Part shown: piece by piece, positions 5,954 through 59,282 of the stretch | How positions within the stretch are numbered: the stretch's first letter is position 1 | How the letters are laid out: each line of letters begins with the position of its first letter | Source of the DNA: Rhodopseudomonas palustris | GTDB taxonomy: Bacteria; Pseudomonadota; Alphaproteobacteria; Rhizobiales; Xanthobacteraceae | Length of the DNA stretch: 64,000 nt | Reading direction: 5' to 3' | NCBI GenBank assembly: GCA_016215605.1 | Contig: JACRJB010000064.1 | Location: 1-64,000 of the forward strand | Made by a program: the position numbers and the translations under genes | Notes under the pieces: generated by a model | Database searches by the model: none | Told to the model about the DNA's origin: nothing | The model's input: the letters and a program-made list of their open reading frames with translations, nothing else

Positions 5954-6310
5954 AGTGAGGCCTGATTAGCTTGGCTATATTAGCAGGATACAGCCTTATT
6001 TTATCCATGCTTATATCAGGTTACAATATGATTTGATAAATGATATTATCAGGCTCCAGTCTTATAAAATCCCGTACGAATTGCCCGCTGCGGCCCAGCC
6101 GCTACTCGTCCGGCGAGAAATCGCCTTCATCATACTTGGCGGCCAGCCGGGTACTGCGCACCCGCCCCTCTCAGCGCACAGGCCGGTCGCCCTTGATCAT
6201 GACGAGCCGGAAACGCCGGCGATTATCAGGGCAAGCACGCTCGGCAATGCGTCCTCCGGCATCTGGGAGCTGTACGCGCGCTGGCTCTTGATCTTCCGTA
6301 CCCTGAATCT
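5954..6310. other. AT-rich gap, possible decayed coding DNA
   Basis: Positions 5954-6060 are far richer in A and T than the rest of the window and should hold the mobile mystery operon promoter. Minus-strand DNA from about 6200 to 6030 contains protein-like pieces in broken frames (RRFRLVMIKGDRPVR, then RLAAKYDEGDFSPDE, then GQFVRDFIRLEPDN after an in-frame stop). This suggests a dead gene. I cannot name the family. Confidence 0.35.
5961..6053. promoter_or_regulatory. Three TA(T/G)CAGG iterons at 33-bp spacing
   Basis: TAGCAGG at 5981-5987, TATCAGG at 6014-6020 and TATCAGG at 6047-6053 are spaced by exactly 33 bp, about three helical turns. The first two extend to TAGCAGGATACAG and TATCAGGTTACAA. 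An inverted relative, CCTGATTA, lies at 5961-5968, next to the protein A start codon. The likely role is an operator array for the XRE-type protein A; this is inference. Confidence 0.55.
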
Positions 6311-6393
6311 CGGGATTCCGGGTTCGCGAGCTTACGCTCGCGCCCCGGAATGACCGCAAGTGGAAGAGCTGGCGCTCGCGCCCCGGAATGACG
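6311..6393. repeat. Family A palindromic repeat, 1.5 copies
   Basis: GATTCCGGGTTCGCGAGC pairs with GCTCGCGCCCCGGAATGAC, followed by a second half-unit GCGCTCGCGCCCCGGAATGAC. This is the commonest repeat of the window. The remaining 60 bp before the YqeY gene's stop codon show nothing else. Confidence 0.8.
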
Positions 6394-10018: not shown

Positions 10019-10119
10019 GTCATTCCGAGGCGCCGCGCAGCGGCGAACCCGGAATCTCGAGCTGCCCTGAACTTCAGGATTCCGGGTTCGCGGGCTGCGC
10101 CCGCGCCCCGGAATGACGA
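10019..10119. repeat. Family A palindromic repeat, paired copies
   Basis: Two head-to-head family A units: GTCATTCCGAGGCGCCGCGC ... GAACCCGGAATC, then GATTCCGGGTTCGCGGGC ... GCGCCCCGGAATGAC. Together with the family C element this fills most of the 307-bp gap between the two GST genes. Confidence 0.8.
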
Positions 10120-13394: not shown

Positions 13395-14447
13395 ATGCGC
13401 TATTCGGGCGACGACTTGCGGGCTGCGGCGGCGGCCGGCGTGATATCGCCGGCGCAACTGGCGCCGCTGATCGCGTTCCTCGACGCGCGGCGGCCGGCGC
13501 AGCCCGCCGACGGGCCGCGGTTCGATCTGGTGCATCTGTTGTGGTACGCCGGCGCGCTGCTGGTGATCGGCGCGATGGGGCTGTTCTCGACGCTGGCGTT
13601 CTCGTCGATGGGCGGCAAGGCGCTCGCCGCCACCGCTGTGGTCTATGCCTTGCTGTTCGGCGGCACCGGGCACTATCTGTGGCACGGCAAGCAGCTGCGC
13701 ACCCCCGGCGGCCTGCTGATCGCGATCGCGGTGTCGATGGCGCCGCTCGCGGTCTACGGCGTGCAGGACGCGTTCGGGCTGTGGACGGAGTTCGGCAAGC
13801 CCGGCCAGGTGCGCGACTTCTACGTCTGGATCAAGGGCAGCTTCGTGTTCATGGAGCTCGCTACGATCGCGGCGGCGCTGATCGCGCTGGCGTTCTACCG
13901 CTTCCCCTTCATCGTGTTCGTGATGGCGGTGGCGCTGTGGTTCCTGTCGATGGACATCGTGCCGTGGATCACCGGCCTGCCGCACGGCAATTCCGAGACC
14001 GCGCGCAAGATCTCGATCTGGTTCGGGCTCGGCGTGGTGATCGCCGCGCTGATCGTGCATCTGCGCCAGCGCGGCGGCGACTTCGCGTTCTGGCTGTATC
14101 TGTTCGGCGTGATGACGTTCTGGGGCGGCATCACCGCGACTTCGGACGGCACCGCGCTCGACAAGGCGCTGTATTGCGCGCTCAACGTCGCGTTCCTCGG
14201 CATCGCGGTGCTGCTCGGCCGGCGGGTGTTCGCGGTGTTCGGCACCATCGGGATCGCGATCTATCTCGGCGATCTCGCCGCCAAGCTGTTCAAGGATTCG
14301 CTGCTGTTCCCGTTCGCGCTGTCGGCGATCGGCGTCGCGGTGATTGCGCTGGGCCTCTATCTGCACCGCCGCATGCCGGCGATCGAGGCCTGGTTCGACG
14401 CGCGGCTGCCGGAGGGGATGCGGCGGCTGCGAGCCATGCCGACGTAA
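13395..14447 (+). CDS. DUF2157-like membrane protein
   Basis: A 350-residue polytopic inner-membrane protein with about ten hydrophobic segments. The N-terminal soluble part ([30 protein letters not shown]) resembles the DUF2157 head. The start is the ATG preceded at 9 bases by GGAG; an ATG five codons earlier is possible. The function is unknown. It ends 46 bp before uvrB and could be cotranscribed with it. Confidence 0.8.
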
Positions 14448-14493
14448 CGCCCGAACCCTTTATTCGGCGGGCGGGCCGCCCCATATTGCCGGC

Positions 14494-17400
14494 ATGGCGA
14501 AATCCCCCGACTCGAAGACTCCCGCGAAGCCCAAGGCGCCGAAGACTCCGAAATCCAAGGCGCACCGTCCCGACGTGCAGCCGATCGGGCCGGCGCTGGC
14601 GGAACTGCTCAATCCGGCGATCAATCGCGGCGACGCCGGGATGGGGTCGGGCACCGGGCTGCAGCCGCCGCCGGACAATTCGCGCGACCGCCGCACCGGC
14701 GGCGAAGCCGCGGTGCATCGCGGCCGGGCTTCGACGCCGAAGGGTGGCGCATCGCAAATCAACAGCGCCGCATCCGCGGCCTACCCCCCACCCCGACCCT
14801 CCCCCGCAAGGGGGGAGGGAGAACAGAGCACGGCCTCGCCCTCCCCTCCCCCTCGCGGGGAGGGGTCGGGGGTGGGGGGCCACGAGCACGGCTTCGATGA
14901 AGCCGCACAGACGAGCTACGCCCCGAACTACGGCACCGCCGCCACCATCCCGACGCTCGATCCGGAACTGGCGCGGCAGCTCGGGATGCCGACCGAGGAG
15001 GACGACGAAGCCGCGCTGGCGCGGCCGCCGCGCAACAAGATGGAAGCGCTCGGCGTGCAGGCCACCGCCGAGGCGCTGGAGAACCTGATCCGCGACGGCC
15101 GGCCGGAGTTCAAGGGCGAGGACGGCAACGTCAAGCTGTGGGTGCCGCACCGGCCGCCGCGACCGGAGAAGTCCGAAGGCGGCGTCCGCTTCGTCATCAA
15201 GTCGGACTACGAGCCGAAGGGCGACCAGCCGACTGCCATCAAGGAACTGGTCGAAGGCATCGACCGCAACGATCGCACCCAGGTGCTGCTCGGCGTCACC
15301 GGCTCGGGCAAGACCTACACCATGGCCAAGGTGATCGAGGCGACGCAGCGTCCCGCGATCATTTTGGCCCCGAACAAGACGCTGGCGGCGCAGCTCTACG
15401 GCGAGTTCAAGAGCTTCTTCCCGGACAACGCCGTCGAGTATTTCGTCTCCTATTACGACTACTACCAGCCCGAAGCCTACGTCCCGCGCACCGACACCTA
15501 TATCGAGAAGGATTCCTCGATCAACGAGCAGATCGACCGGATGCGCCACGCCGCCACGCGCGCGCTGCTGGAGCGCGACGACGTCATCATCGTCGCCTCG
15601 GTGTCGTGCATCTACGGTATCGGCTCGGTCGAGACCTATACGGCGATGACCTTCGCGGTGAAGCGCGGCGAGCGGATCGACCAGCGCCAGTTGATCGCCG
15701 ACCTGGTGGCGCTGCAATACAAGCGCACCCAGGCCGACTTCACGCGCGGCACCTTCCGGGTGCGCGGCGACGTCATCGACATCTTCCCGGCGCACTACGA
15801 GGATCGCGCCTGGCGGATCAAGACGTTCGGCGACGAGATCGAGGCCATCGAGGAATTCGACCCGCTCACCGGCCACAAGCAGGACGAACTGGAATTCGTC
15901 AAGATCTACGCCAATTCGCACTACGTCACGCCGCGGCCGACGCTGATCCAGGCGATCTCCTCGATCAAGACCGAGCTGAAATGGCGTCTCGACCAGTTGC
16001 ACGCACAGGGCCGCCTGCTCGAAGCGCAGCGGCTCGAGCAGCGCACCACGTTCGACATCGAGATGATGGAAGCGACCGGCAGCTGCGCCGGCATCGAGAA
16101 CTACTCACGCTATCTCACCGGCCGCCGGCCGGGCGAGCCGCCGCCGACGCTGTTCGAATACGTGCCCGACAACGCGCTGGTGTTCGCCGACGAGAGCCAC
16201 GTCTCGATCCCGCAGATCGGCGCGATGTTCAAGGGCGACTTCCGCCGCAAGGCGACGCTGGCCGAATACGGCTTCCGGCTGCCGTCCTGCATGGACAACC
16301 GGCCGCTGCGCTTCGAGGAATGGGACATGATGCGGCCGCAGACGGTCGCAGTGTCGGCGACGCCGGCGGCGTGGGAGCTGAACGAGAGCGGCGGCGTGTT
16401 CGTCGAGCAGGTCATCCGCCCGACCGGGCTGATCGATCCGCCGGTCGACATCCGCCCGGCGCGCACCCAGGTCGATGATCTGGTCGGCGAGGTCCGCGCC
16501 ACCGCGGCGCGCGGCTATCGCACGCTGATCACCGTGCTGACCAAGCGGATGGCCGAGGACCTCACCGAGTTCCTGCACGAGCAGGGCATCCGCGTCCGCT
16601 ACATGCACAGCGACATCGACACCATCGAGCGCATCGAGATCATCCGCGATTTGCGGCTCGGGGCGTTCGACGCGCTGGTCGGCATCAATTTGCTGCGCGA
16701 AGGCCTCGACATTCCGGAATGCGCGCTGGTGGCGATCCTCGATGCCGACAAGGAGGGCTTCCTGCGCAGCGAGACCTCGCTGATCCAAACGATCGGCCGC
16801 GCCGCGCGAAACGTCGACGGCAAGGTCATCCTCTACGCCGATCACATCACCGGCTCGATGCAGCGCGCGATGGACGAGACCTCGCGGCGCCGCGAGAAGC
16901 AGGTCGAATACAACACCGCGCACGGCATCACGCCGGAGAGCGTCAAGAAGTCGATCGGCGACATCCTCAACAGCGTGTACGAGCGCGACCACGTGCTGGT
17001 CGAGATCGGCGACGGCCAGGGCTCCGGCTTCACCGACGACGCCGCGGTGATCGGCCACAATTTCGAGGCGGTGCTGGCCGATCTCGAAACGCGGATGCGC
17101 GAAGCCGCCGCCGACCTGAACTTCGAGGAAGCCGCGCGGCTGCGCGACGAAGTGAAACGCCTGCGCGCCACCGAGCTGGCGGTGATCGACGATCCGACGG
17201 TGAAGCAGCGCGGCGTGACAGCGAAAGCCGGCAGCTACAAGGGCGACAAGAAATACGGCGCGTCCGCCAACCTGCCAAAACTCTCGACCGAACGCGGCGG
17301 CAACAACACGCCGTCATCCAAGGTGCACAAGCCCGACCTCGACGAGATGGGCATCGCCGGCTGGCACGAAGTCAAGAAAGTCCAACGCGCCAAGCCACGC

Positions 17401-17547
17401 AAGCCGACGCTCGACGAGATGGGCCCGGGGACGGAGAGCAGGATCTTCCAGCCGAAGAACAGCCGCGAGTCGGGACCGGAATTCGGGCCCGCGCCGCGCT
17501 CGAGCGGCGGCGCGCCGGGGCATCGGGGTGGGTGGAAGAAGAGGTAG
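14494..17547 (+). CDS. uvrB: UvrABC excinuclease subunit B
   Basis: A 1017-residue helicase-like damage-verification subunit of nucleotide excision repair. Walker A is GVTGSGKT (about residue 268), the damage-probing beta-hairpin is [18 protein letters not shown], and the C-terminal UVR motif is [15 protein letters not shown]. The common UvrB is about 670 residues. This one has a low-complexity N-terminal extension of about 230 residues and a basic C-terminal tail, as seen in related alphaproteobacteria. The extension contains a 32-codon insertion derived from a palindromic repeat (residues 98-129). No GTTC-N7-GTTC LexA box was found upstream. Confidence 0.96.
14784..14879. repeat. Family D repeat inserted in uvrB
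   Basis: Outer arms CCCCCCACCCCGACCC and GGGTCGGGGGTGGGGGG flank two inner hairpins (CCCTCCCCCGCAAGGGGGG and CCCCTCGCGGGGAGGGG). The unit is 96 bp, exactly 32 codons, so the frame is kept. Its right part reads [14 protein letters not shown], almost the same peptide as the family D copy inside ileS. Confidence 0.85.
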
Positions 17548-24390: not shown

Positions 24391-24601
24391 GTCATTCCGG
24401 GGCGCGCGCAGCGCGAACCCGGAATCCATAACCCCTTGCCTGATTGTCCTGCGCTGAGACCATCGACTGCCGCCGTGCGTCACCGCATCGCTGCGGCGTA
24501 TGGATTCCGGGTTCTCGCTTCGCGAGCCCGGAATGACGAACGAGACGCTGCGGGAGCCTGAGATTCCGGGTTCGCTCGCTGTGCGAGCGCCCCGGAATGA
24601 C
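24391..24601. repeat. Family A palindromic repeats, cluster
   Basis: Three or four half-units in 211 bp: GTCATTCCGGGGCGCGCGC ... GAACCCGGAATC, then GATTCCGGGTTCTCGC ... GAGCCCGGAATGAC, then GATTCCGGGTTCGCTCGC ... GCGCCCCGGAATGAC. It fills the 296-bp gap between the DUF4282 and ychF genes, which converge here. Confidence 0.8.
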
Positions 24602-33473: not shown

Positions 33474-33621
33474 GTCATTCCGGGGCGCGCGAAGCGCGAG
33501 CCCGGAATCCATAACCACCAGATTTGCTTTGATCCGCAGCGGTCCGACGCGCGGGCTTGAACGTGAGTCCAGGGCGTCTGGATTCCGGGTTCGCGAGCTG
33601 CGCTCGCGCCCCGGAATGACG
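33474..33621. repeat. Family A palindromic repeat, paired copies
   Basis: GTCATTCCGGGGCGCGCG ... GAGCCCGGAATC, then about 90 bp later GATTCCGGGTTCGCGAGC ... GCGCCCCGGAATGAC. It lies between the convergent prs and ribH genes. Confidence 0.85.
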
Positions 33622-33682
33622 AACGAGAGAGCGTTTTCCGATCGAGACTCACGCGGCTGTGCAACGGCAGCGGCACAGATCC

Positions 33683-40641: not shown

Positions 40642-40888
40642 GTCATTCCGGGGCGCTCACGAAGTGAGCGAACCCGGAATCTCGCTCCGCAGAACATATC
40701 GAGAGTCCGGGTTCGCGAGCTACCGCTCGCGCCCCGGAATGACGGAGAAAGCGAACCTCTCCCGCTTGCGGGAGAGGTCGGATCGCGCAGCGATCCGGGT
40801 GAGGGCCCTCCTCTCCGCGATTAGCTGACTCACTGCCTGGGGCGCCCTCACCCCAGCCCTCTCCCGCAGGCGGGAGAGGGAGAGCGCT
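40642..40888. repeat. Families A and D side by side
   Basis: Family A units at 40642-40744 (GTCATTCCGGGGCGC ... GCGCCCCGGAATGAC) are followed at 40755-40888 by two family D units (CCTCTCCCGCTTGCGGGAGAGG and CTCTCCCGCAGGCGGGAGAGG cores, each about 20 bp). A partial family F end (CTGCATCGCGTCCGGGACAC) follows near 40918. Together they fill the 320-bp gap between the convergent ilvE and mutL genes. Confidence 0.8.
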
Positions 40889-48088: not shown

Positions 48089-51000
48089 TCAAGACGGCGT
48101 CGCGCCCAGCGCCTTCCATTCGCGCAGCGCCTTGGCGTCGCGCGGGGAGACGTCGGGGTAGTCGGGGTCGCTGCCGACGCTCGACAGGATCTTCCACGAA
48201 CGGGCGCATTTGGTGCCCTGCGCGCGTTCGACCACGACGGCGACGCCGGCGACGTTGTCGAGCCGGAACGCTCCCTCCGGCGCGTCGCCTTCGCGCACCT
48301 CGTAGTTCGAGGTGATGCAGACCTCGGCGAGGTCAGTGTCGAACACCGTCGCCATCAGCGGCCGGTCGGCGAGATAGATCACCGGCGACGCTTCCAGCGA
48401 CGAGCCGATCCGCTTGGCGGCGCGCTCGAGCTCCAGCGCGCCGGTGACGACGCGGCGGACGCTGCGGATGGTCTCCCACTTCTTGGCGAGCTCATCGTCC
48501 CGATAGGCGCCGAGGTCGAGCGGGAACAGCGTCAGATGCACGCTCGGCTCGGCGCCGGGCCGGTACAGCCCCCACGCCTCGTCGGTGGTGAAGGACAGCA
48601 CCGGCGCCAGCCATTTCAGGATCGCGTCGCAGATGATGTCGATCGCGGTCAGCGCCGCCTTGCGGGCCAGCGACGACGGCGGGTCGCAATACAGCGTGTC
48701 CTTGCGGATGTCGAAATAGAACGCCGACAGTTCGGTGTTCATGAACGCGGCGAGCGAGGCGACCACGGTCTTGTAGTCGAACTCGGCATAGGCTGCGCGC
48801 ACCACCGCGCTCTGTTCGGCGAGCTGATGCAGCATCAGCCGCTCCAGCTCCGGCATCTCGGCGAACGCCACCGCCTCGTCGCGCTTGTAGTGATGCAGCG
48901 TGCCGAGCATCCAGCGGATCGAGTTGCGCAGCTTGCGATAGGTCTCGACCACGTTCTTGAGGATCTCGGGGCCGATCCGCTGGTCGTCGGCATAGTCGGT
49001 GGCGCACACCCACAGCCGCAGGATGTCGGCGCCGGATTGCGAGATCACCTTCTGCGGCTCGGTGGTGTTGCCGAGCGACTTCGACATCTTGCGGCCCTGC
49101 TCGTCGAGCGTGAAGCCGTGCGTCAGCACCACGTCGTAGGGCGCGCGGCCGCGGGTGCCGCAGCTCTCCAGCAGCGACGAATGAAACCAGCCGCGATGCT
49201 GGTCCGAACCTTCGAGATACATCACGGTGTCGGCGCCGCCGTCGACCTTGCGGCGGATGCCGGCGAGGCCGGGGAAATGCACCGGATCTTCCAGCACGAA
49301 GGCGTGGGTGGAGCCGGAGTCGAACCATACGTCGAGAATGTCGTCGACCTTCTGCCAGCCCTCGTTGGCGCGCGAGCCGAGGAAGCGCTCGCGCGCGCCC
49401 TCCATGTACCAGGCGTCGGCGCCCTCTTCGGTGAAGGCGTCGGCGATGCGCTTGTTGACCTCATCGTCGACCAGGATTTCGGCGGAGCCGTCGCCGGCCT
49501 CGCGCACAAACACCGCGATCGGCACGCCCCAGGCGCGCTGCCGCGAAATCACCCAGTCGGGCCGGCCGGAGATCATGCCGGTGATGCGGTTCTGCCCGGC
49601 GGGCGGCACCCATTGGGTCACCGAGATCGCCTGCAGCGCCCTTGCGCGAAGAGTATCACCCGGCAACGCATCGCTGCGCGCTCCCTCTCCCGCTTGCGGG
49701 AGAGGGTTGGGGTAAGGGCGCCCCGAGGATGTGCTCCCGCCGTGGCCCCCCACTCCCGACCCCTCCCCGCAAGGGGGAGGGGAGGAGATGTCGCGATCCA
49801 TCGCGATGAACCATTGCGGCGTGTTACGGAAGATCACCGGCTTCTTGGAGCGCCAGGAATGCGGGTACTGATGCTTGAGCCGGCCGCGCGCCAGCAGCAT
49901 GCCGCGCGCGATCAATTCCTGGATCACCGCCTCGTTGGCGTCGCCCTTCTCGCCCTTGTCGTTGATCACCCGCTTGCCGGTGAAGCCCGGCGCATGATCG
50001 GTCAGCGCGCCGTTCTCGTCGACCGTGTAGGGGATCGTCGACGCAATGCCGCGCGCTTCCAGCGCCCGGGCATTGTGCATCCAGATGTCGAAGTCCTCGC
50101 GGCCGTGGCCCGGCGCGGTGTGGACGAAGCCGGTACCGGTGTCGTCGGTGACGTGATCGCCGTCGAGCAACGGGACGGTGAACGCGTAGCCGTCGCCAAC
50201 GCCTTTGAGCGGATGGGCGCATTCGAGCGACTTCAGAAGATCTGCGGCAACCGCGCTGACTTTCTCATAGTTCACGACGCGCGCCTGCTTGAATACGGCG
50301 TCGGCCAGCGCATCGGCAAGGATCAGCAGGTCGCCGGTCTTCGCCCAGTTATCAGCCGCGGCATCGGTGACCTTGTACAGACCGTAGGAAATTTTCGACG
50401 AGAAGCTGATCGCACGGTTGCCCGGCAACGTCCACGGCGTGGTCGTCCAGATCACTACGGAAGCACTCTTCCAGGCGTCTCGAAGAGCGACCGACTCAGC
50501 TAGAGTTGAGCCGATCCCCATTAAGGGATACCCGCTTGCGCGTCCGACGACCGGAAACTTCACCCAAACCGTATCGCTCGTGTAGTCCTCGTACTCCACC
50601 TCGGCTTCAGCCAGCGCGGTCTTTTCGACCACGCTCCACATCACCGGCTTGCTGCCGCGATACAGCGTGCCGTTGGCGGCGAACTTCATCAGTTCGCGGG
50701 CGATCTGGGCTTCGGCGAAGTAATCCATCGTGGCGTAGGGATGGTCCCAGTCGCCGATCACGCCGAGCCGCTTGAACTCCTCGCGCTGCACGTTCAGCCA
50801 CTTCGTCGCGTAGGCGCGGCATTCCTTGCGGAACGCGACCATCGCGGCCGAGTCCTTGAAGTTCGGCTTCGGCTTGCCCTTGGAGCGGTAGTTCTCCTCC
50901 TCGATCTTCCATTCGATCGGCAGGCCGTGGCAGTCCCAGCCCGGCACGTAGTTGCTGTCGAACCCGAGCATCTGCTGGCTCTTGGTGACGACGTCCTTGA

Positions 51001-51262
51001 GGATCTTGTTCAGCGCGTGGCCAATATGGATGTTGCCGTTGGCGTAAGGCGGGCCGTCATGCAGCACGAATTTGGCGCGCCCCTTGGCGCTCTCGCGCAG
51101 CTTGCCGTAGAGGTCGATCTCCTGCCAGCGCTTGAGCAATTCCGGCTCACGCTGCGGCAGCCCGGCGCGCATCGGAAACTCCGTCTGCGGCAGGTACAGG
51201 GTCTTGGAATAGTCGTTGCCGCTGGGGGCGGCGGCGTCGGATTTCACGGGCTTGTCGGTCAT
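48089..51262 (-). CDS. ileS: Isoleucyl-tRNA synthetase
   Basis: A 1057-residue class Ia synthetase with its editing domain. The HIGH motif is in [15 protein letters not shown] and the KMSKS motif in [30 protein letters not shown] and WDDIL-type regions are normal. Between [13 protein letters not shown] (ending at residue 492) and [12 protein letters not shown] it carries about 42 extra residues (493-534) encoded by a palindromic repeat. Relatives have only a few residues there. The rest of the protein looks intact. Confidence 0.96.
49664..49786. repeat. Family D repeat inserted in ileS
   Basis: Two hairpin units: CCCCTCCCCGCAAGGGGGAGGGG (arms CCCCTCCCC and GGGGAGGGG) and CCCTCTCCCGCTTGCGGGAGAGGG (arms CCCTCTCCCGC and GCGGGAGAGGG). 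They keep the frame and encode residues 493-534. The first part reads [14 protein letters not shown], matching the peptide from the uvrB copy. Confidence 0.85.
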
Positions 51263-59162: not shown

Positions 59163-59171
59163 TCGAACGAC

Positions 59172-59269
59172 GTCATTCCGGGGCGCGAGCGACAGCTCGC
59201 GAACCCGGAATCCAGAGGTTGTTGCAAAGAGAGATTCCGGGTTCGCGCTACGCGCGCCCCGGAATGACG
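59172..59269. repeat. Family A palindromic repeat, paired copies
   Basis: GTCATTCCGGGGCGCGAGC ... GAACCCGGAATCC, then GAGATTCCGGGTTCGCGC ... GCGCCCCGGAATGAC. It lies between the convergent receptor and GNAT genes. Confidence 0.85.
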
Positions 59270-59282
59270 ACGTCGGACGAGG

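Follow-up and report, generated by a model that had tools for sequence, protein, structure and literature searches.

An in-frame palindromic repeat in the single ileS gene

The window, by which we mean the whole stretch of 64,000 nucleotides that was analysed, lies within contig C47 of a Rhodopseudomonas palustris genome of 5.79 Mb. It carries ileS, the gene of the essential enzyme isoleucine--tRNA ligase (IleRS), and a palindromic repeat, here assigned to family D, is read in frame within this gene:

48092..51262, minus strand: ileS, isoleucine--tRNA ligase, 1057 aa (TIGR00392, 769 bits against a cut-off of 621)
49661..49786, minus strand: insertion loop, residues 493-534, between MDRDI and GDTLR (coordinates by arithmetic)
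49681..49785, minus strand: full-length family D element, 105 nt, read in frame in ileS
49741..49785, minus strand: half A of the D element (in the ileS sense), inverted pair I9
49679..49718, minus strand: half B of the D element

In family D, a spacer separates two imperfect palindromes that are oppositely oriented, and the element as a whole is an imperfect inverted repeat. It is a dispersed repeat: a DNA search of the host genome returned at least 64 match rows, some of which are both strands of one place, and 40 of the 151 candidate places were scored. The best second copy has an E value of 1e-35. The longest perfect stem of the ileS insert is 11 nt, and the RNA fold of positions 49664-49800 (MFE -83.7, z -4.0) is far stabler than the folds of shuffled sequences.

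The first-pass annotation had reported about 42 extra IleRS residues encoded by a family D element, an observation that is partly confirmed. The insertion and its origin in D stand, based on the full-length element at 49681-49785 and its dispersed copies in the genome, and the encoded peptide is indeed one substitution apart from the peptide in uvrB. The size has to be revised. Counted from MD to TLR, the loop has 47 residues in the carrier versus 13 in its commonest form, a net gain of 34 and not 42, because the larger figure also counts residues of the host loop. No intein domain was found among the Pfam and NCBIfam matches of IleRS, and the insert is short and of low complexity.

A protein search of the host genome detected one full-length ileS. 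Of the 22 matches to IleRS, 19 others overlap the insert and two are weak partial matches elsewhere (26-28% identity). A duplicate of ileS, which the first-pass annotation had named as a finding that would speak against its view, is rejected as none of these matches is a second full-length copy.

Recurrent occupation of the IleRS loop

The IleRS loop after TPQWFIAMD is a hotspot of repeat insertion. It is variable in length, and in the best-matching solved IleRS (8c9e) comprises only about 3 residues (query residues 488 and 539 correspond to 415 and 419), which agrees with the earlier proposal that the loop tolerates the insert. The full D element is present in ileS of four of 16 same-genus genomes (G000, G002, G007 and G013, the host genome included), and short forms of D are found in two others (G004 and G005). 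Nine of the 16 have the 13-residue loop without an insert, and one (G001) has a loop of 20 residues without a recognised repeat. When the 210 nt on each side of the loop are compared, G002 and G004 are nearest to strains without the insert (G010/G003 and G006) rather than to further carriers. The insert and its flanks have thus not stayed together, whether through local exchange, re-insertion or a precise loss from the empty strains.

Across a wider set of 111 ileS genes, 71 have the empty 13-residue loop and 14 carry repeats in the loop, which were first sorted by eye and then matched to other copies. Another 26 longer loops were classed as non-repeat, with no match to any fetched locus outside ileS. 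On a quick tree of the 111 IleRS proteins (115 rows minus four duplicates, loop removed, SH-aLRT support only), repeat presence requires at least 10 changes, and 13 if the families are kept apart.

The repeats in the loop belong to different families. Subtypes of D occur in G064, L109 and L155, a palindrome that differs from D in G020 and G060, and another repeat family in G027. The loop of G067 holds a CGTC-type repeat, which by eye fits the pattern of a CGTC tag, an AT-started stem and a CCA tail. Repeats are also found in the loop of Nitrobacter winogradskyi (L123) and, at a contig break, in that of G031. A query made by joining six of these loops detected dispersed copies in the genomes of G020, G060, G064, G067, G027 and G031, and the inserts of L109 and L155 have matches among the D copies at other loci that were fetched. 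N. winogradskyi has five matches to the joined query, and only its own ileS is among the matches listed; copies similar to its loop repeat occur in G027 and G064. In total, four to six families occupy the loop; the number varies with the treatment of the N. winogradskyi type, which may be merged with another, and with the inclusion of G031.

The G031 gene, cut by the contig end, was kept outside the tree and the tests. Its assembly breaks inside the ileS loop, where two contigs (C22 and C7; L063 and L062) have repeat-like ends, and the insert may be longer than seen.

A loop of the same length without the palindrome had been named as a finding that would speak against the repeat, and it was encountered once. 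The G073 loop (L011) has 47 residues and a longest perfect stem of 8 nt, versus 11 nt in the D carrier, and does not match fetched loci outside ileS. The repeat identification stands because it is based on dispersed copies, and the G073 case shows that the loop tolerates other insertions too.

Separately, a 12-residue LDAPAKAGATDI-like extension of the loop is scattered among Bradyrhizobium and Nitrobacter relatives (L107, L110, L116, L139, L161 and L010 of G041). The DI motif is repeated in most of them, and the extension may have arisen by a short duplication or may be what remains after the loss of a repeat.

Family D in other genes of nucleic-acid enzymes

The scan for in-gene copies covered 63 merged D units in stretches of the host genome and in the window. 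Family D was found in ileS, in an ATP-dependent DNA ligase (TIGR04120), in an RluA-like pseudouridine synthase and in uvrB. Only ileS and the ligase passed the strict coding score on both flanks. The RluA-like gene call is backed by a Pfam match across the insert and by relatives without it. In uvrB the coding score of the flanks is weaker than in the other three genes, and the call is backed by relatives, in which the sequences flanking the linker on either side are homologous. The uvrB features in the window are:

14344..17547, plus strand: uvrB open reading frame (UvrB match from residue 283), in which a linker bearing the repeat precedes the UvrB domain
14784..14821, plus strand: half-B-like unit preceding half A
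14841..14878, plus strand: half A of D, in the same frame as in ileS

The ligase and RluA-like inserts are each at one site across the genus. Among the 16 same-genus genomes, 13 have D at the RluA-like site; of the genes in the remaining three, two are split at the insert between contig ends and one is read in two frames. Outside the genus, G036 has D at this site, G031 has a D-like unit read in another frame, G047 has a repeat of a different kind and several genera have a short loop (G034 and G024 were left unclassified). The uvrB linker could be read in 20 of 30 fetched loci and, by eye, ten of these hold paired or single D units and ten do not. Like the RluA-like site, it holds different inserts in different relatives, and both sites look like hotspots similar to the ileS loop.

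Across several genes and species, half A of D contains a nested extra stretch of 8 residues, ACPGLDPG or ARPGLDPG (L065 and L221 in the ligase; L293 and L296 in the RluA-like gene; L325 and L328 in uvrB), which looks as though a smaller repeat had been inserted into the larger one.

One alternative to repeated insertion is a single ancient insertion per site that was inherited, diverged and lost in some lineages, with the families as diverged forms of one insert, which resembles the proposal for the extended RPE-4 in Rickettsia. The constancy of the ligase and RluA-like sites across the genus fits this, as do the ileS inserts of Rhodopseudomonas, which share junctions; by eye, the short forms in G004 and G005 look like deletion derivatives. 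We nevertheless consider this scenario unlikely. It is already weakened by the different families of other genera, which have dispersed copies in those same genomes, by the scatter of repeat-bearing loops among the 71 empty ones, and by the empty loops of G003/G010 and G006, whose flanks are nearest to those of G002 and G004.

One strand and one reading frame

The reading frame of D was assessed in 140 distinct full-length copies from the window, stretches of the host genome, three ileS loci and 90 loci belonging to 12 genomes of the genus, a sample biased towards copies similar to the query, which is itself in a gene. Coding potential was scored on the two flanks alone, excluding the element, with a codon model seeded on ileS. 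At the strict threshold, 23 of the 140 copies are in genes: 11 in the ligase, 8 in the RluA-like gene (11 at the loosest thresholds) and 4 in ileS; looser thresholds give 24 to 26. All of these 23 to 26 copies are read on the ileS strand in frame 0 and none in another frame, with the caveat that they occur in only three genes and are largely orthologous. A bias of in-gene copies to one frame, which the first-pass annotation had suggested looking for, is therefore found. It is unlikely to be due to chance, since each of the six frames is free of stops in 81-125 of the 140 copies. With the four genes, including uvrB, taken as independent events, the probability of one shared frame is 0.005; it decreases to about 3e-5 to 6e-6 with seven or eight events (other genera counted), if these are independent.

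The two halves are in register in 22 of the 23 genic copies versus 34 of the 117 copies classed as non-genic, a number that is as expected without coding; three of the 117 were later seen to be within the RluA-like gene. The sole full-length copy with flanks in different frames is in the ligase of G015 (L273), where a run of unknown residues lies inside the element. The RluA-like gene of G014 (L307), which reads in two frames, was excluded. Two exceptions were identified by eye: the D half-units in the RluA-like gene of G031 and in the second uvrB unit of G005 use another low-charge frame.

Charge and hydrophobicity of the used frame

For 16 inserts in the four genes, trimmed to the repeat, the used frame was compared with every other frame free of stops; this set leaves aside the D insert in the RluA-like gene of G009 and the uvrB insert of G007, which is a single unit. 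By absolute net charge, the used frame ranks lowest in 15 of the 16 inserts against an expectation of 4.8 (P 5e-6, as low as the simulation can go), and in 12 of 16 it has the lowest share of lysine and arginine as well as the fewest bulky hydrophobics (4.3 expected and P 7e-5 for each), although many of these inserts are D and hence non-independent. With one insert per family, net charge remains significant (5/6, P 0.02), while the lysine and arginine share (3/6, P 0.23) and bulky hydrophobics (4/6, P 0.06) do not; two of the six inserts (L123 and G047), which are 73% alike, may represent a single family. Among ordinary coding segments of the window, 62% have the least charge in the frame used, 61% the lowest lysine and arginine share and 2% the fewest bulky residues. 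The charge effect is therefore partly generic to genes of a GC-rich genome, whereas the scarcity of bulky residues is special to the inserts.

These data bear on the possibility that the insertion machinery, for example through a target motif in one codon phase, fixes the frame without any selection on the peptide. The use of a single strand and frame by full-length D in genes is what such machinery would produce. We regard this as improbable, however, given that unrelated families each use the least charged of their frames (15 of the 16 inserts, or 5 when one insert is taken from each of 6 families), that two D half-units are in another frame and that no clear target-site duplication or shared target is apparent by eye between filled and empty ileS loops.

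Selection on the insert

The D peptide shows no sign of constraint. The uncorrected pN/pS among orthologous inserts is 1.24 in the RluA-like gene (6 copies), 2.13 in ileS (4 copies) and 1.56 in the ligase (8 copies), similar in kind to the value of 1.39 for 20 non-genic D copies in the same frame, versus 0.12-0.20 in the host coding sequence directly upstream of the inserts. These comparisons use 6 of 8 RluA-like, 8 of 11 ligase and all 4 ileS copies; the omitted ones contain a nested insert or are in another register. Synonymous divergence is 0.03-0.09 in the inserts versus 0.15-0.33 in the upstream host sequence, about 3 to 8 times lower. Either the inserts are younger than the split of the strains, or they are homogenised with other copies, or their stems are constrained; an old insert drifting neutrally would not by itself account for so low a divergence. 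The nearest neighbour of the 23 in-gene copies is an ortholog in 13 cases, a copy elsewhere in nine and a copy of the same genome in one, with a few of the copies labelled non-genic being in fact within the RluA-like gene.

The insert could also act as DNA or RNA, as a hairpin in the ileS message or as a nucleoid or recombination site, with coding incidental and gene conversion keeping the copies similar. The very stable fold (z -4.0), the reduced synonymous divergence and the fact that some in-gene copies are no closer to orthologs than to copies elsewhere are consistent with such a role. We think it has little probability, as the insert is present in some strains only and a purely DNA-level function would not predict one coding frame.

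That the peptide itself is useful, as a tag, a linker or a regulatory or protein-binding segment, and is selected, as the first-pass annotation suggested and as its recurrence in four genes, all of nucleic-acid enzymes, might imply, is rejected as very improbable because pN/pS exceeds 1 in the inserts (1.2-2.1 versus 0.12-0.20 in the flanks), nine of 16 same-genus ileS genes are without the insert and unrelated peptides occupy the loop in other genera. The earlier interpretation of the ileS insert is partly supported, for the tolerance of the insert and for the shared frame.

Element class and mobilisation

A Y1 transposase (PF01797) was not matched in the host genome at E 0.001. It is detected in six of 15 same-genus relatives, with one or two matches each, and in five of these relatives above the family cut-off. 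The seven RAYT-like loci inspected (L186-L192) have, by eye, their own GTAG repeats of several types. D units are near two of them, close downstream in G008 and as a weak match about 2.4 kb away in G006, but bracket the RAYT-like gene at none of the seven. RAYT is thus rejected as the mobiliser of D on present evidence, as PF01797 has no match at E 0.001 in the host genome and no inspected locus is bracketed by D. These two observations leave no known mobiliser for D here, and a divergent transposase may be behind it. Read by eye, the ends of the D palindromes have no GTAG tag, and no CGTC tag, AT-started stem or CCA tail was seen in D. With regard to a MITE, which would have terminal inverted repeats and a target-site duplication, D is an imperfect inverted repeat over its whole length, and by eye the filled and empty ileS loops reveal no clear duplication.

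The window also contains repeats with a CCGGAAT stem, which by eye are of the CGTC or Br-REP2 type:

2949-2987: CCGGAAT-stem repeat
6307-6354: CCGGAAT-stem repeat
10070-10117: CCGGAAT-stem repeat
24391-24433: CCGGAAT-stem repeat
33474-33622: CCGGAAT-stem repeat
40642-40743: CCGGAAT-stem repeat
59171-59270: CCGGAAT-stem repeat

Relation to known intragenic repeats

Intragenic palindromes are already known. In Rickettsia, the available descriptions of the RPEs report palindromic repeats of about 100-150 bp that are in frame in conserved genes and encode a related peptide, including one RPE-7 within ileS (PMC3767692, PMC10969869). Family D, a 105-nt palindromic repeat with many dispersed copies that is in frame in four conserved genes and encodes a related peptide, resembles the RPEs in its mode of working, the likeness being drawn independently of sequence comparison. 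It differs in its host and in that several unrelated families are found here in one loop of related species. Whether different palindromes at one site reflect a hotspot or one old diverged insert is left undecided in the Rickettsia account, as far as its available text goes (PMC3767692).

Intragenic GTAG/CGTC REPs are described in uvr genes, DNA ligase, tRNA synthetases and pseudouridine synthases, and REPs at the same site in Xanthomonas recB (Di Nocera 2013, PMC3733652, available portions). These gene classes are the same as the hosts of D. Unlike these REPs, D lacks the GTAG and CGTC tags by eye, and the portions of the REP account available give no frame or charge rule. Br-REP1 and Br-REP2, from Bradyrhizobium and Rhodopseudomonas, are likewise dispersed palindromes in the bacterial group of the D host, but in the available part of the report they are unlike D in sequence and are described from intergenic regions (PMC5082802). 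As described there, Br-REP2 resembles by eye the CCGGAAT repeats of the window. We found no report in the openly accessible literature of D-type repeats in Rhodopseudomonas or Bradyrhizobium proteins, or of a frame or charge rule for intragenic repeats.

Discussion

The reading that we consider probable is that selfish repeats land widely and that those in permissive loops with a bland reading frame survive, a filter of tolerance without a useful tag. D and the other short palindromic repeats would be dispersed, probably selfish elements that repeatedly land across the genome. In conserved genes their survival would be confined to a few permissive loops or linkers, namely the IleRS loop after TPQWFIAMD, the UvrB N-terminal linker and sites in the ATP-dependent DNA ligase and the RluA-like synthase, and to insertions whose length preserves the reading frame and whose translation is bland, with approximately zero net charge and few bulky hydrophobics. 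Purifying selection would be the filter, acting on inserts that are presumably translated and tolerated by the protein, and the shared peptide would be the footprint of this survival filter, not of a selected function.

A wider reading, which we put forward tentatively and with some doubt, combines several parts. The permissive loops of IleRS, UvrB, the ATP-dependent DNA ligase and the RluA-like synthase may be standing docking sites for palindromic repeats in nucleic-acid enzymes, where different families enter, swap and leave with little trace. Gene conversion or re-insertion might keep the in-gene copies in step with the dispersed ones, and neutral charge together with few bulky hydrophobics might decide which of the six readings is viable. 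If this is true, the recurrence of repeats in the same classes of gene among distantly related bacteria would amount to a general law of the places in proteins where selfish DNA hides.

For the question raised by Rickettsia, the IleRS loop provides a clear case of a hotspot: unrelated families, dispersed in their own genomes, are found in the same loop of closely related enzymes, and empty sites are preserved. The data suggest a rule, open to testing, about the readings of a selfish repeat that proteins tolerate, and such a rule would be useful for understanding the origin of new protein segments and for the choice of insertion sites and linkers.
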